Shown here piece by piece: positions 57,742 to 63,716 of a stretch of DNA of 64,000 nt. The translations under genes and the position numbers were made by a program. The notes beneath the pieces were generated by a model, which made no database searches, was not told where the DNA came from, and worked only from the letters and a program-made list of their open reading frames with translations. The stretch comes from Olsenella uli (GTDB taxonomy: Bacteria > Actinomycetota > Coriobacteriia > Coriobacteriales > Atopobiaceae). The stretch's first letter is position 1. The number at the start of each line of letters is the position of its first letter. Where the stretch lies: positions 1-64,000 of the forward strand of contig NZ_JACJKN010000008.1 of NCBI RefSeq assembly GCF_016900775.1, given 5' to 3'.

Positions 57742-57896
57742 GGCCAGCGCGCCCAGCCGCCCACGGCTCCCCATACCACAACGCTACAGTTAGCCGAATG
57801 TAATATATGTGTCGCCAAATTAGGGGAGGGGGTATTCCCTCAACCAAGGTGTGATAGCATCAGTTCCACCAACAGGTCATGTTGAGAGGGGGAGTG

Positions 57897-58541
57897 ATGT
57901 CAGATTATGCCGCACAGGTACTTTTACCTGCGGAAACAGAGTTCTCTGCCGCTCCCTCGAAGATATCAACTTATAAAATGATAATCGGGGGGGGGGTCTC
58001 CCGGAATAGGCTAGACCTACCGGAGGCACGCCCAACCAACGGAACGCTCTGCGCGCTGCGCGTGACGCCCGGCCACGAGCGCGCGATGGCGCGTCGCGTG
58101 CGCCGCGTCGCGGCGGCGGGGCTCAACGACTGCTACGTCCTGCTCACGGAGCGCGAGCGCCGCCGCGACGGGCTCTGGCACAGGGAGCTCGTCCCCACCT
58201 TCCCCTCCTACCTCATCCTCGACGTGCGGAACCCCGACGCCCTCGAGCGCGGGCTCCGCCTCCTCACGGCCCCCGCGGACCTTCCGCGCGTGGGCGGCGT
58301 GCCCGCCGCAATCCCCGCGGAGGACGCCGCGCTCCTGCGCGCGCTCGCCGGCCCCGACCACGTCATCCGCGCGTCCCGGGGTGCCATCGAGGACGGCGCC
58401 CTCCGCGTGTGGGAGGGCCCGCTCGCCGGGCGAGAGCAGCTCGTTCGCCGCATAGACCGCCATCGTCGCGCCGCGTACCTCGACTCGCGCCTCGGCGAGG
58501 GCCGGCTGCGCGTGGGGCTCGAGGTGGTGAGCAAGACCTAG
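57897..58541 (+). CDS. NusG-like antiterminator (LoaP/UpxY type), first gene of the polysaccharide cluster
   Basis: The 214-residue protein has a NusG N-terminal domain from about residue 45 (LCALRVTPGHERAMARRV, FPSYLILDV) and a KOW-type end (EGPLAGREQLVRRIDRHRRAAYL). Specialised NusG paralogs such as LoaP and UpxY let polymerase read through terminators in long polysaccharide operons. The ATG at 57897 has GAGAGGGGGAG. Residues 1-40 are not conserved and are encoded by AT-richer DNA containing ten consecutive G (57987-57996). A change in tract length would shift the frame before the NusG domain, so expression may be phase-variable. Confidence 0.85.
   Translation: MSDYAAQVLLPAETEFSAAPSKISTYKMIIGGGVSRNRLDLPEARPTNGTLCALRVTPGHERAMARRVRRVAAAGLNDCYVLLTERERRRDGLWHRELVPTFPSYLILDVRNPDALERGLRLLTAPADLPRVGGVPAAIPAEDAALLRALAGPDHVIRASRGAIEDGALRVWEGPLAGREQLVRRIDRHRRAAYLDSRLGEGRLRVGLEVVSKT
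57987..57996 (+). repeat. G10 homopolymer inside the first NusG-like gene
   Basis: Ten G residues encode GGG GGG GGG G(TC) as Gly-Gly-Gly-Val at residues 31-34. With ten G the frame is open. Confidence 0.9.
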
Positions 58542-58556
58542 CCAAAGACTCAAGGC

Positions 58557-58608
58557 AGCTTTCTGTGCGCGGCCCACGGGCCCTCTCGCGGGCGGCGCAC
58601 AGCAAGCT
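58557..58608 (+). promoter_or_regulatory. Leader hairpin between the NusG-like genes
   Basis: AGCTT-T-CTGTGCGC (58557-58570) pairs with GCGCACAG-C-AAGCT (58595-58608), 13 pairs with one mismatch. A strong structured RNA just after the first gene and before a terminator, where an antitermination target would be expected. Confidence 0.6.
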
Positions 58609-58701
58609 GGCTCCCTGCGTGCGCAGGCGTGCTGTTGCTGCATACATACCCCGGTCGACCGCGCGGTGCATCAGGCGGGCGCGGAGGGCTCGGGGGAGTG
58701 A

Positions 58702-58785
58702 AGAGACTCGCGATGCCGCCGACGGGCGGCATGGCCGAAGGCGTGGGCCGCGTGCCCGGCGCCAGGCCACGCGCGTCTCTTTTTT
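58702..58785 (+). terminator. Complex terminator between the NusG-like genes
   Basis: AGAGAC (58702-58707) pairs with GTCTCT (58775-58780); inside it ATGCCGCC-GAC-GGGCGGCAT forms another stem. Six T residues end it (58780-58785). A natural target for the NusG-like regulator upstream. Confidence 0.7.
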
Positions 58786-58831
58786 CATGACCAGATTCAG
58801 ACAGGAAGAACCCGGGGAGGTGATGGCGAGC

Positions 58832-59434
58832 ATGTGGTACGTGGTGCAGGTGACAGGCGGGACCGAGGAGCGCATGGCCGAGCTCATAGAGAGCGTGGCC
58901 ACGCCGGGCGTGCTGGAGGAGTGCTTCCTCCCGCGCTACCAGACGGAGATCAAGGTCCGCGGCGCGTTCCGCCCCGTGGAGAAGCCGCTCCTCACGGGCT
59001 ACCTCTTCGCCGTGACCGCGGACCCCGCGCGCCTGGCGCGCGACCTCGCCAAGATCCCGGAGTTCGCTCGTGTCCTCAAGGTGGGAGGGGCCTACGCGCC
59101 GCTCTCCCGCGAGGAGGAGGCCTGGCTCGGCGCTTTCACCGAGCCGGGGCGCCGCTGCGTCCCCATGAGCTACGGCGTGGTGGCGGGCGAGAAGATCGTG
59201 GTCACCGAGGGGCCCCTCAAGGGGCACGAGGCCATGATCGCCGAGGTCGACCGCAGGCGCAGCGTTGCGTACCTGCGCTTTGAGATCTGCGGCCGCGAGG
59301 TGACCACCCGCGTGGGCCTGGGGCTCGTGGCGCGCCTGCCCGAGACCGCCCGCGCGGAGGCGGAGCGCGTGGTGTCGGAGCGGCGCGCACGCGCGCGGGC
59401 GAGAAGGTGCTCCATGGAAGGAACCTGCAAGTAA
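58832..59434 (+). CDS. NusG-like antiterminator (LoaP/UpxY type), second copy
   Basis: The 200-residue protein has a complete NusG pattern: WYVVQVTGGTEERMAELI, FLPRYQTEIKVRGAFRP, KPLLTGYLFAVTADP and the KOW segment VVTEGPLKGHEAMIAEVDRR. Starts are ambiguous. GGGGAGG lies 11 bases before ATG 58832 and only 2 bases before ATG 58823. It directly precedes the sugar transferase, without a gap. Its presumed role is to keep polymerase moving through the long polysaccharide operon. It differs much from the first copy, so the two are unlikely to be recent duplicates. Confidence 0.88.
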   Translation: MWYVVQVTGGTEERMAELIESVATPGVLEECFLPRYQTEIKVRGAFRPVEKPLLTGYLFAVTADPARLARDLAKIPEFARVLKVGGAYAPLSREEEAWLGAFTEPGRRCVPMSYGVVAGEKIVVTEGPLKGHEAMIAEVDRRRSVAYLRFEICGREVTTRVGLGLVARLPETARAEAERVVSERRARARARRCSMEGTCK

Positions 59435-60163
59435 ATGGATAGGAACGAGCTTGTCGTGACCCAGTGCGGAGGCTACGCGCTCGAGCGGGTCGAGGGCGTG
59501 GCGGCGGGGCTCGATCCCGAGGCGGCCCGCGCGGCCGAGCGGCTGAGGACGGGACGGTGGGCCTACCGCGCCGTCAAGCGCGCGTTCGACGTCTGCTTCA
59601 GCGCGTGCGTGCTCGTGTGCCTCTCGTGGCTCTTCCTCATCGTTGCTATAGCCATCAAGCTGGACGACCCGGAGGGCCCGGTCATCTTCTCGCAGGCCCG
59701 CGTCGGGCGCGACGGCCGGGAGTTCCGCATGTACAAGTTCCGCAGCATGTGCGCCGACGCCGAGAGCCGCCTCGCGGAGCTGGCCGGGAGAAACGAGAAG
59801 GACGGACCGGTCTTCAAGATGGCGGACGACCCGCGCGTCACGCGCGTGGGCAGGTTCCTGCGCAAGACCTCGATCGACGAGCTCCCGCAGTTCGTGAACG
59901 TGCTCGTGGGGGACATCTCGGTCGTGGGGCCGCGCCCGGCGCTTCCCAAGGAGGTCGCGCAGTACACTCCCCGTCAGCGTCAGCGCCTCTCCGTGAAGCA
60001 GGGCATCACCTGCTACTGGCAGACGCGCAGGAATCGCGACTCCATCACCTTCGACGAGTGGGTCGACCTGGACCTCATCTACGTGAAGAAGTGCGGCCTC
60101 TGGGCCGACCTCAAGCTGATCGTCCAGACCGTGGGCTGCGTGCTCACGGCGCAGGGGAGCTAG
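59435..60163 (+). CDS. Initiating sugar-1-phosphate transferase (WbaP/WcaJ-like)
   Basis: The 242-residue protein joins the first sugar phosphate to undecaprenyl phosphate, which starts a lipid-linked repeat unit. It has one membrane segment (about 50-72) and the conserved core PVIFSQARVGRDGREFRMYK, FRSMCADAESRLAEL, RVGRFLRKTSIDELPQFVNV, GDISVVGPRPALP and GITCYWQTRRNRDSITFDEW. It is the small, single-domain form without the long N-terminal membrane domain. The preceding gene's stop abuts the ATG. Which sugar it uses cannot be told. Confidence 0.93.
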   Translation: MDRNELVVTQCGGYALERVEGVAAGLDPEAARAAERLRTGRWAYRAVKRAFDVCFSACVLVCLSWLFLIVAIAIKLDDPEGPVIFSQARVGRDGREFRMYKFRSMCADAESRLAELAGRNEKDGPVFKMADDPRVTRVGRFLRKTSIDELPQFVNVLVGDISVVGPRPALPKEVAQYTPRQRQRLSVKQGITCYWQTRRNRDSITFDEWVDLDLIYVKKCGLWADLKLIVQTVGCVLTAQGS

Positions 60164-60165
60164 CG

Positions 60166-61287
60166 GTGCGCATAGCCATGATCGGGCACAAGCGCTTTGG
60201 CTCGCGCGAGGGTGGCGTGGAGGTTGTGGTGACCGAGCTCGCCCGTCGCATGGCGGCGCTTGGGCATGAGGTCACCTGCTACGACCGGGGCGGCAAGGAC
60301 GTCATGACCGGTGACCGAGCGCACGGCGAGCGCGTCGTGGATGGTGTGCGCGTGGTGCCGGTCCGAACCATCGATGCCAGGGGCATGGCGGCTCTGAGCT
60401 CCTCGTTCTTTGCGACGCTTGCCGCCGTCAAAGACAAGCCTGACGTTATCCACTACCATGCGGAGGGTCCGTGCGTGCCACTCCCGATGGCGCGCCGCGC
60501 GGGCATACGGACCGTCGCGACGATCCACGGCCTCGACTGGCAGCGAGCCAAGTGGGGTAGGCTCGCAAGCTCCTACATAAAGCTCGGCGAGAAGAACGCG
60601 GCGGGATGCGCGGACGAGGTTATCGTGCTCTCGCGGTCCACGCAGCGCTATTTTCGCGAGACGTACGGACGCAAGACCCTGGTCATTCCCAACGGGATCA
60701 ACCCCAAGGAGCCCAGGGCGGCGCGTGTCATTACCGAGCGCTGGGGACTGGGGAGGGGCTCCTACATCCTCTTCCTCGGGCGACTGGTGCCCGAGAAGCG
60801 ACCCGAGCTCCTCATAGAGGCATTTAGAGGGCTCGAGACGGACAAGTGCCTTGTCATCGCGGGGGGCGGTTCCGACACATCCGCCTACGAGACGGCCCTC
60901 AGGCAGGCTGCCGAAGGCGATGACCGCATTCTCTTCACGGGCTTCGTGCAGGGTGAGGAGCTCGCCGAACTCTACTCGAATGCGTACTGCTACGTGCTGC
61001 CCTCTGATGTGGAGGGCATGCCGATGAGTCTGCTCGAGGCCATGGCGTACGGCTGCTGCTGCGTGACGAGCGACATCCCCGAGTGCGCGGACGTGCTCGC
61101 GGGGACGGGGATGACGTTCGAGCGGGGGAGCGCCGCGGGCCTGCGGCAGGTGCTCGTGTCGCTTCTGAAAGACGATGGGGAGGCCCGTGCTCTCGGGCTG
61201 ACCGCCCGCAAGCGCGCTCTCGAGTCATTCGGTTGGGACTCCGTCGTTCGATGGACGCTTGAGACCTATGAGGGGGCTGCCGGATGA
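60166..61287 (+). CDS. Glycosyltransferase family 4
   Basis: The 373-residue GT-B enzyme has an N-terminal domain with RIAMIGHKRFGSREGGVEVV and DVIHYHAEGP. The C-terminal nucleotide-sugar domain reads ILFLGRLVPEKRPELLIEAF, then PSDVEGMPMSLLEAMAYG, the ExxxxxxxE signature. It would add a sugar to the lipid-linked intermediate on the cytoplasmic face. The start is a GTG 2 bases after the sugar-transferase stop. Donor and acceptor are unknown. The end overlaps the next ATG. Confidence 0.9.
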   Translation: MRIAMIGHKRFGSREGGVEVVVTELARRMAALGHEVTCYDRGGKDVMTGDRAHGERVVDGVRVVPVRTIDARGMAALSSSFFATLAAVKDKPDVIHYHAEGPCVPLPMARRAGIRTVATIHGLDWQRAKWGRLASSYIKLGEKNAAGCADEVIVLSRSTQRYFRETYGRKTLVIPNGINPKEPRAARVITERWGLGRGSYILFLGRLVPEKRPELLIEAFRGLETDKCLVIAGGGSDTSAYETALRQAAEGDDRILFTGFVQGEELAELYSNAYCYVLPSDVEGMPMSLLEAMAYGCCCVTSDIPECADVLAGTGMTFERGSAAGLRQVLVSLLKDDGEARALGLTARKRALESFGWDSVVRWTLETYEGAAG

Positions 61288-62567
61288 GGGTCATTCTCGT
61301 CAACAAGTTCCACTACCGCAAGGGCGGGTCGGAGACCTACTACTTCGCCGTGGCCGACGCGCTCAGGTCCCAGGGGCACCAGGTGTTCTTCTTCGCCATG
61401 GAGGACCCTGAGAACGAGCCGTGCGACCAGGCGAGGTGCTTCGTCTCAGCCAAGGACTACAACGGGCCGACGTCGGTGGTGCGGAAGGTCGGCGAGGCCG
61501 CGTCGCTCCTGTACTCCACGGAGGCCAAGCGGAAATTCGAGGCCCTCTGTGAAGCGGTGCGACCTAACGTCGTCCACATGAATCTCGTCCACCGGCAGAT
61601 CACGCTCTCGATCCTCGATGCGCCGTACCTTCAGGAGCACGGGGTCCCGGTCGTCTGGACGGCACACGACTACATCGCGGTGTGCCCGAGCTACACGATG
61701 CTCGACGGCAACGGCGAAGTGTGCGAGGCGTGCCTGGGCGGCCATTTTTCCAGCTGCCTCAAGCGGAAGTGCGTCAAGGGCTCGACGGCAAAGAGCGGCT
61801 TGGCGACGCTCGAGGCGGAGTACCTGCGCCTCACGAAGGTGTACGCAAAGATCGACCGCATCATCTGCCCCTCCCAGTTCCTGGGGAGCAAGATGGTCGA
61901 GGGCGGCTTTCCCACAGAGCAACTCGTCTGGATGCCCAACTTCCTGACGGACCGGGCAGTCTCCGAGATCGAGGGCGTTCCCGCGGCCGATTCGGGCAGG
62001 CCGTACTTCATCTACTTCGGGCGGCTTTCGGGCGAGAAGGGCGTCGCGGTCCTGCTGCGGGCATTCGTGCGGGCGCGGGCTCAGGGCCTGCCGGAGGACT
62101 ACGGCCTCGCCATCGTCGGCGACGGTCCCGCGCGCGCCGAGCTGGAGCAGCTTTCCGCCGAGCTCGGCCTCGCCAACGCCGCGGCGTTCCTCGGCTACAA
62201 GTCGGGTGACGAGCTCAGGGCGCTCGTGAAGGGCGCCCGCTTCAGCGTGGTCCCGTCGACGTGGTACGAGAACATGCCGTTCTCCGTCGTCGAGTCTCTT
62301 CTGGCGGGGACGCCGGTCCTGGGGAGTCGCATCGGCGGCATCCCCGAGCTCGTCGACGAGGGCAGGACCGGCTTCACGTTCACCGCGGGGGACGCCGACG
62401 CGCTCGCCAGCCTGCTGCGCTCCGCGACGGATCTCTCCGACGACGAATACCGCGCGATGCAGGCAGCGGGTCGGGCGTTCGTCCGCGAGCGCTGCTCCGA
62501 GAGCGCCTACCTGCAGAAACTCGTCGACCTCTATACCACCCTCATACGCGAGAAGAAGGGTCATTAA
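61284..62567 (+). CDS. Glycosyltransferase family 4
   Basis: The 427-residue GT-B enzyme opens with RVILVNKFHYRKGGSETYYF. A cysteine-rich insertion follows (CPSYTMLDGNGEVCEACLGG then SSCLKRKCVKG), as found in one GT4 subgroup. YFGRLSGEKGVAVLLRAF begins the C-terminal domain and STWYENMPFSVVESLLAGTP carries the ExxxxxxxE site. The insertion may bind metal. It overlaps the preceding gene by 4 bases (ATGA). Confidence 0.9.
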   Translation: MRVILVNKFHYRKGGSETYYFAVADALRSQGHQVFFFAMEDPENEPCDQARCFVSAKDYNGPTSVVRKVGEAASLLYSTEAKRKFEALCEAVRPNVVHMNLVHRQITLSILDAPYLQEHGVPVVWTAHDYIAVCPSYTMLDGNGEVCEACLGGHFSSCLKRKCVKGSTAKSGLATLEAEYLRLTKVYAKIDRIICPSQFLGSKMVEGGFPTEQLVWMPNFLTDRAVSEIEGVPAADSGRPYFIYFGRLSGEKGVAVLLRAFVRARAQGLPEDYGLAIVGDGPARAELEQLSAELGLANAAAFLGYKSGDELRALVKGARFSVVPSTWYENMPFSVVESLLAGTPVLGSRIGGIPELVDEGRTGFTFTAGDADALASLLRSATDLSDDEYRAMQAAGRAFVRERCSESAYLQKLVDLYTTLIREKKGH

Positions 62568-62570
62568 TCC

Positions 62571-63716
62571 ATGGCTGAGAAGAAACTCAACGGCACCGTC
62601 ATCGTCACGTACCGCTGCAACGCGCGCTGCACCATGTGCAGCCGTTACAAGGCGCCGAGCCGCCCGGAGGAGGAGCTCTCGCTCGAGACGATCAGGAAGC
62701 TTCCGCGCATGTACTTCACCAACATCACGGGAGGGGAGCCCTTCATCCGCAAGGACCTCAAGGACATCGTACGCGAGCTCTACAAAAAGAGTGACCGCAT
62801 TGTCATCTCCACCAACGGCTTCTTCACCGACCGCATCATCGACCTCTGCGAGGAGTTCCCTGAGGTCGGCATCCGCGTTTCCATCGAGGGTTTGGAGGAC
62901 ACCAACAACGAGATCCGAGGGCTCCCCAACGGCTTCCAGCGCGGGTATCAGACGCTCAAGAAGCTCGTGGAGATGAAGCACCCCGACGTTGGTTTCGGCA
63001 TGACGGTGCAAGATAGGAACGCCAAAGATCTCGTGCCGCTCTACAAGCTTTCAGACGAGCTGGGAATGGAGTTCGCCACGGCGAGCCTTCACAACAGCTT
63101 CTACTTCGTGGAGGCCCACAACATCATCCATGACCGTCCGATGGTGGCCAAGAACTTCGAGAACCTCGTGAACGAGCTCCTCAGGAGCAGCTCGCCCAAG
63201 AAGTGGTTTCGCGCCTACTTCAACCACGGCCTCATCAACTACATCTATGGCCAGCCGCGCCTGCTGCCCTGCGACATGGCGTTCGACACCTTCTTCATCG
63301 ACCCCTACGGCGATGTCATGCCCTGCAACGGCACCAAGGACAAGGAGGTCATGGGCAACCTCAACGAGGAGTCCTGGGACGAGCTCTGGAACTCCGACCA
63401 GGCGGAGAAGGTCCGCGCGAAGGTTCGTCACTGCGACCGTAACTGCTGGATGATCGGCTCGGTGAGCCCGGCCATGCACAAGTACATCTGGAAGCCCGGC
63501 TGGTGGGTGCTCAAGCACAAGGCGAAGGCGCTCTTTACCAAGAAGCCCTACGACATGCACGAGCTCAAGATCGTCAGCGACTACGAGGAGGGCCGCGTGA
63601 CCAAGGAGCAGCTCGACGCCTGCTCCACCTGCGACCTGTGCGCCACAGTGAACGACGGCCTGTCCGAGGCGTCGAAGGCGGATGCCCACGTGTACGAGAC
63701 GCATGAGGCGTTGTAA
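62571..63716 (+). CDS. Radical SAM protein with SPASM-like C-terminal region
   Basis: The 381-residue protein has the cluster motif TYRCNARCTMCSRYKAPSR (CxxxCxxC), an ITGGEPFIRKDL nucleotide loop, and a downstream cysteine set: LLPCDMAFD, DVMPCNGTKD, RHCDRNCWM, and a final DACSTCDLCATV. Such SPASM-type proteins modify peptides or act in biosynthesis; within polysaccharide clusters the targets are mostly unknown. It follows the glycosyltransferase by 3 bases and is part of the same operon. I cannot name its substrate. Confidence 0.88.
   Translation: MAEKKLNGTVIVTYRCNARCTMCSRYKAPSRPEEELSLETIRKLPRMYFTNITGGEPFIRKDLKDIVRELYKKSDRIVISTNGFFTDRIIDLCEEFPEVGIRVSIEGLEDTNNEIRGLPNGFQRGYQTLKKLVEMKHPDVGFGMTVQDRNAKDLVPLYKLSDELGMEFATASLHNSFYFVEAHNIIHDRPMVAKNFENLVNELLRSSSPKKWFRAYFNHGLINYIYGQPRLLPCDMAFDTFFIDPYGDVMPCNGTKDKEVMGNLNEESWDELWNSDQAEKVRAKVRHCDRNCWMIGSVSPAMHKYIWKPGWWVLKHKAKALFTKKPYDMHELKIVSDYEEGRVTKEQLDACSTCDLCATVNDGLSEASKADAHVYETHEAL

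Follow-up and report, generated by a model that had tools for sequence, protein, structure and literature searches.

In Bacteroides, the NusG paralogues known as UpxY are encoded by the first genes of phase-variable polysaccharide operons, whose promoters are invertible. The NusG paralogue LoaP of Bacillus velezensis acts by antitermination through a leader hairpin, which allows terminators to be passed (PMC12691694). In Eggerthella lenta, capsule phase variation arises by a large DNA inversion that repositions loci relative to loaP (PMC13174815), and in Bifidobacterium breve the sortase-dependent pili are switched by replication slippage within G-tracts, an actinobacterial precedent (PMC9187656). 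The locus described here lies in a window of 64 kb (the whole stretch of DNA analysed) and resembles each of these systems in part. Its first gene, n1, encodes a NusG paralogue and precedes a set of polysaccharide genes, as UpxY genes do; however, whereas the UpxY promoters invert, it is the reading frame of n1 itself that would switch. E. lenta belongs to the same order, and its system likewise involves capsule loci and loaP, but the switch there is an inversion, and that report does not mention homopolymer tracts or frameshifts (PMC13174815). The B. breve switch shares with n1 an actinobacterial G-tract whose length sets the frame, and we count as a further likeness that the tract joins a short upstream ORF with a Shine-Dalgarno sequence to a downstream ORF without one. 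The gene switched in B. breve encodes a pilin, whereas n1 encodes a putative transcription antiterminator, and would be a potential master switch.

Similar to LoaP of B. velezensis (NCBIfam antiterm_LoaP, NF033641), n1 is a NusG paralogue associated with a leader RNA that is structured and with a hairpin resembling a terminator (Table 1), and in heading a polysaccharide cluster it satisfies the LoaP criterion that the gene come first in a long biosynthetic operon. NF033641 is the best model for n1, and is matched by all ten members of the n1 clade in our first phylogenetic tree. The score of 78 bits does not meet the curated cut-off of 125, however, and we therefore name n1 LoaP-like rather than filing it as LoaP. 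No Pfam family matches n1 at an E-value of 0.001; a solved structure that does match is 8f5g (E 1.3e-6). The gene further differs from loaP in its poly-G leader and in its pairing with a second LoaP-like gene (n2). The leader RNA has a conserved hairpin, in which inspection by eye did not recognise a UNCG loop.

Table 1. Features of the n1 locus, in window coordinates.
Feature	Position	Strand	Basis
Purine-rich, Shine-Dalgarno-like sequence of n1 (GAGAGGGGGAG)	57884..57894	+	Sequence; spacing to ATG 57897
n1, LoaP-like NusG paralogue, 214 aa, ON at G10	57897..58541	+	ORF translation; NF033641, 78 bits; 8f5g match
G10 tract, codons 31-34 of n1	57987..57996	+	Sequence
TAGGCTAG, one TAG per out-of-frame reading (58007-58009, 58012-58014)	58007..58014	+	Sequence
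Conserved NusG-like domain of n1	about 58053..58538	+	Alignment; profile match
R1, structured RNA element between n1 and n2	58554..58707	+	Covariation, fold; no credible Rfam match
Long terminator-like hairpin with a terminal TTTTTT (unproven)	58701..58785	+	Minimum-energy fold
n2, second LoaP-like NusG paralogue	58823..59434	+	PF02357 (NusG), E 4.3e-8; NF033641, 122.2 bits (cut-off 125)
Priming undecaprenyl-phosphate sugar transferase, abutting n2	59435..60163	+	PF02397, E 4.6e-67
Glycosyltransferase (GT4 type)	60181..61287	+	Profile match
Glycosyltransferase	61284..62567	+	Profile match

The RNA element R1 recurs across Coriobacteriales in front of LoaP-like genes, features an invariant ACAUA motif, and is supported by covariation (both sides changed in 19/37 pairs; 0.48 versus 0.25 when shuffled). 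A search of Rfam 15 returned no credible counterpart, only chance matches. The hairpin that follows escaped a simple terminator scan, which found no terminator, probably because the loop is long. Its sequence is the same in a related genome (G091), where n1 has decayed (L068:1740-1935): only a G6 is left of the tract, and the bulk of n1 and of its domain is gone. The neighbouring n2 of G091 shares 92.6% identity with that of the window. Past the window end the cluster adds further glycosyltransferases and a Wzy-type polymerase; within the window it also encodes a Radical SAM/SPASM protein (62571-63716, + strand).

Reading from the ATG at 57897, the tract runs GGG GGG GGG Gtc and precedes the NusG-like part of the protein, which starts at about residue 52. 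This confirms the initial annotation, which had placed ten G in codons 31-34, ahead of the NusG domain. It had also claimed that one G more or less would cut off that domain, and in both wrong frames a TAG is indeed met 3-5 codons past the tract. No other run of at least 8 G or C occurs in the window. A single G10 in 64 kb is by itself unremarkable: about 0.3 runs of at least ten are expected by a first-order Markov estimate. Genome-wide, long G runs are depleted: 2.48 Mb contain 4 runs of at least G10, where 12.5 are expected, and 13 of at least G8, where first-order composition predicts about 161. The weight of the tract comes from its recurrence at n1 in relatives, not from one run.

A homologue search with n1 in 140 genomes of the family showed that the nearest homologues carry leaders with G9-G11 runs. 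At 92 NusG-like genes, selected on homology or with the RNA model but without regard to the tract, there were 15 runs of at least 9 G in the sense orientation of the coding strand and none antisense; ten lie within 300 nt upstream of the domain and five within 300 nt downstream of the gene, against an expectation at genus background of about 0.06 for each flank set of 27.6 kb. Ten first-in-tandem genes form a single clade in the first tree (support 97/94) that is marked by the tract: nine of them have G8 or longer. In an out-of-sample test on nine later-fetched clade members, mostly of other genera, G9 or G10 was present in eight. When the tree was enlarged to 140 NusG-like genes of Coriobacteriales, the n1 clade (support 90/98) spanned three families of the order, and upstream G8-G11 runs were present in 18/21 of its members versus 5/119 genes outside it (Fisher 1.9e-15). 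The clade genes are related and not independent, such that P-values are indicative only. The L034 contig, equal in length to G333:C8, was counted once. The G9 of G259 (L177) adjoins a stretch of N and was not taken as evidence, yet remains within the 15 sense tracts and the five outsiders. Among the exceptions within the clade, which look decayed or short, are G400, with G6, and one G236 copy, with G7. The position of the tract is thus conserved across the clade; its length and the surrounding sequence are not. The pattern CG10KCTC, searched across the class, fell mostly in unrelated places without a NusG gene nearby, so we claim no shared flank motif beyond the G run.

Across 18 tract genes, the leader start was observed in frame with NusG in nine and out of frame in nine. 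The in-frame (ON) alleles are G10 in the window genome (G000) and G333:C9, and G9 in G085, G092, G094, G282:C318, G302:C3, G347 and G439. The out-of-frame (OFF) alleles are G11 in G101, G10 in G333:C8, G201, G302:C4, G282:C309 and G440 (L233, whose state was read from the start homologous to that of L226), G9 in G236 and G167, and G8 in G216. Moreover, the G9, in-frame gene of G282 and the G10, out-of-frame gene of G440 share 96% identity across about 860 nt, with no indel in the coding part apart from G9/G10; further related pairs also differ by single bases of tract length at constant flanks. An invariant tract length, which the initial annotation had said would refute a switch, is therefore contradicted between species. 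For the window species itself no length change has been shown, as there was one genome per species and no reads, and homopolymer lengths in draft assemblies can err by one. We also considered a conserved Gly-Gly-Gly as the feature under selection, and rejected it because half of the alleles are out of frame; it is further disfavoured by GGG making up just 17.5% of glycine codons in the window genes.

The sequence behind the tract closes both wrong frames. In 18/18 genes the first stop lies no more than 4 codons past the tract in one wrong frame and no more than 17 in the other. The longer of these stop distances has a median of 11 codons after the tract, versus 80 at positions inside the domain, and when the in-frame codons after the tract were shuffled in ten divergent genes, closure was as tight in 0/2000 trials. 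In G101, TAGGCTAG is kept within otherwise different sequence.

Poly-G tracts are not confined to n1. In its own cluster, about 14-14.5 kb downstream, a GT4 glycosyltransferase gene is split exactly at a G8 (L073:7987-9116, equal to 71986-73115 of contig C64), and one more G would join the halves, the C-terminal of which matches Glycos_transf_1 (E 1.2e-25). On a second contig of the same genome (C54, about 83 kb), a hexapeptide (acyl)transferase gene is split at a G10 (L070:2855-3473, minus strand), in a region where a LoaP-like gene and a sugar transferase are also encoded. Other genomes have tracts of G9-G12 between a LoaP-like gene and a priming sugar transferase, both in and out of frame. 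From the split enzyme genes and the tracts near sugar transferases, poly-G switching of polysaccharide genes appears to be general in the order.

The tract might instead be a cis-acting nucleic-acid element, either an ops-like site for pausing or for recruiting NusG paralogues, or an mRNA structure, with no slippage switch involved. The tracts between LoaP-like and transferase genes lend this some support, having conserved flanks (for example, CCGAC-Gn-TGCTGACCGCT and TTGCCGAC-Gn-CGTTGAT), and several tracts are followed by CGYTC or TCTC. A pause element, however, needs neither a reading frame that continues across the tract into NusG nor prompt stops in both others; such stops would not be required by a coding Gly-Gly-Gly either. 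Enzyme genes with other flanks are also split at G runs, and tracts with unchanged flanks differ in length by single bases. We consider a purely cis-acting role improbable, though it is the best surviving of the alternatives.

A slightly weaker possibility is that the leader ORF with its tract encodes a separate leader peptide, and that NusG starts downstream, so that tract length is irrelevant to the n1 protein. The initial annotation had named a true start downstream of the tract as grounds for refutation; this does not apply to the window gene, though it may apply to part of the clade. Three Eggerthellaceae-like relatives (G167, G216 and G400) have an ATG just before the NusG domain, downstream of the tract, and the tract may not gate the domain in them; in G400 the leader ATG is lost and the domain is intact. 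In the window gene, by contrast, the stretch from the tract to the domain contains no in-frame ATG, GTG or TTG, the next in-frame start being a GTG already within the first conserved strand, and G101, G085 and G092 likewise lack any such codon from the tract to that strand. Moreover, in 18/18 genes the linker between the tract and the domain is free of stops in the NusG frame, which a separate leader peptide would not need. A downstream start is thus quite unlikely to be the general explanation.

Long homopolymers can cause RNA polymerase slippage. One study (PMC6260861) reportedly describes transcriptional slippage that is non-programmed. A fixed mixture of frames in each cell, produced at the tract by such slippage or by ribosomal frameshifting with no change in the DNA, is nevertheless the least plausible account, since close relatives differ in the length of the DNA itself and the B. 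breve G-tracts switch by replication slippage (PMC9187656).

We favor the reading that n1 encodes a phase-variable, LoaP-like processive antiterminator switched by slippage at its G tract, to which we assign a probability of roughly 0.8, with control of the operon being inferred. Relatives across the order, most of whose members are gut bacteria, keep the run in place, with varying length and with stops behind it, which argues for a genuine slip-prone switch. The original proposal of slipped-strand phase variation is supported by the comparison between genomes (fixed position, nine frames each way and the G9/G10 pair), by the stop closure, and by the other polysaccharide genes of the same genome that are broken at poly-G; slippage as the mutational process is itself an inference. 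In the ON state, translation would begin at ATG 57897, cross the G10 and continue in frame to a full NusG-like protein, and slipped-strand mispairing by one G in either direction would lead to the TAG stops and an OFF state. Since Bacillus LoaP works via a leader hairpin, we infer that n1 acts on R1 and the terminator-like hairpin before n2; both its antitermination activity and this target remain inferences. ON cells would then read through into n2, the priming transferase, and the glycosyltransferase and Wzy cluster, and OFF cells largely would not, with an inferred effect on surface polysaccharide. Beyond this master switch, separate poly-G tracts in single enzyme genes would alter the structure of the sugar.

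With less assurance, and only somewhat in favor, we extend this reading to the order-wide LoaP-like clade: its members may be stochastic master switches, each with a G tract and closed wrong frames, that act at an undescribed structured RNA so that RNA polymerase enters the second LoaP-like gene and the entire polysaccharide operon, with enzyme G tracts diversifying the product. A search of open-access full text for LoaP or NusG together with phase variation found no phase-variable NusG paralogue, and a slippage switch in the antiterminator itself appears to be undescribed in the literature searched. In gut commensals, phase variation of the capsule can determine sensitivity to phages and contact with the host. 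If our reading is correct, a slippage switch in an antiterminator flips a whole operon from one gene, and Coriobacteriales gain a defined, sequence-readable contingency system with a leader RNA lacking an Rfam entry, which can be checked by tract-length counts in existing reads.

Further G runs were observed around these loci. The G9-G12 tracts that separate a LoaP-like gene from the priming sugar transferase (L243, L245, L255, L179, L181, L235, L022, L046 and L050) have closely conserved flanks and differ in length. At L188:580-591, L186 and L187, a second run of G10-G12 lies outside the leader ORF and several hundred bases ahead of n1. In two genomes CTTCAAAGCC comes directly after this run, which is possibly promoter-proximal. 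At L157 (C2:63746, G10) and L155 (C1:80561, G9), the runs sit as Shine-Dalgarno sequences just before an ATG, where tract length might tune expression at the level of translation.
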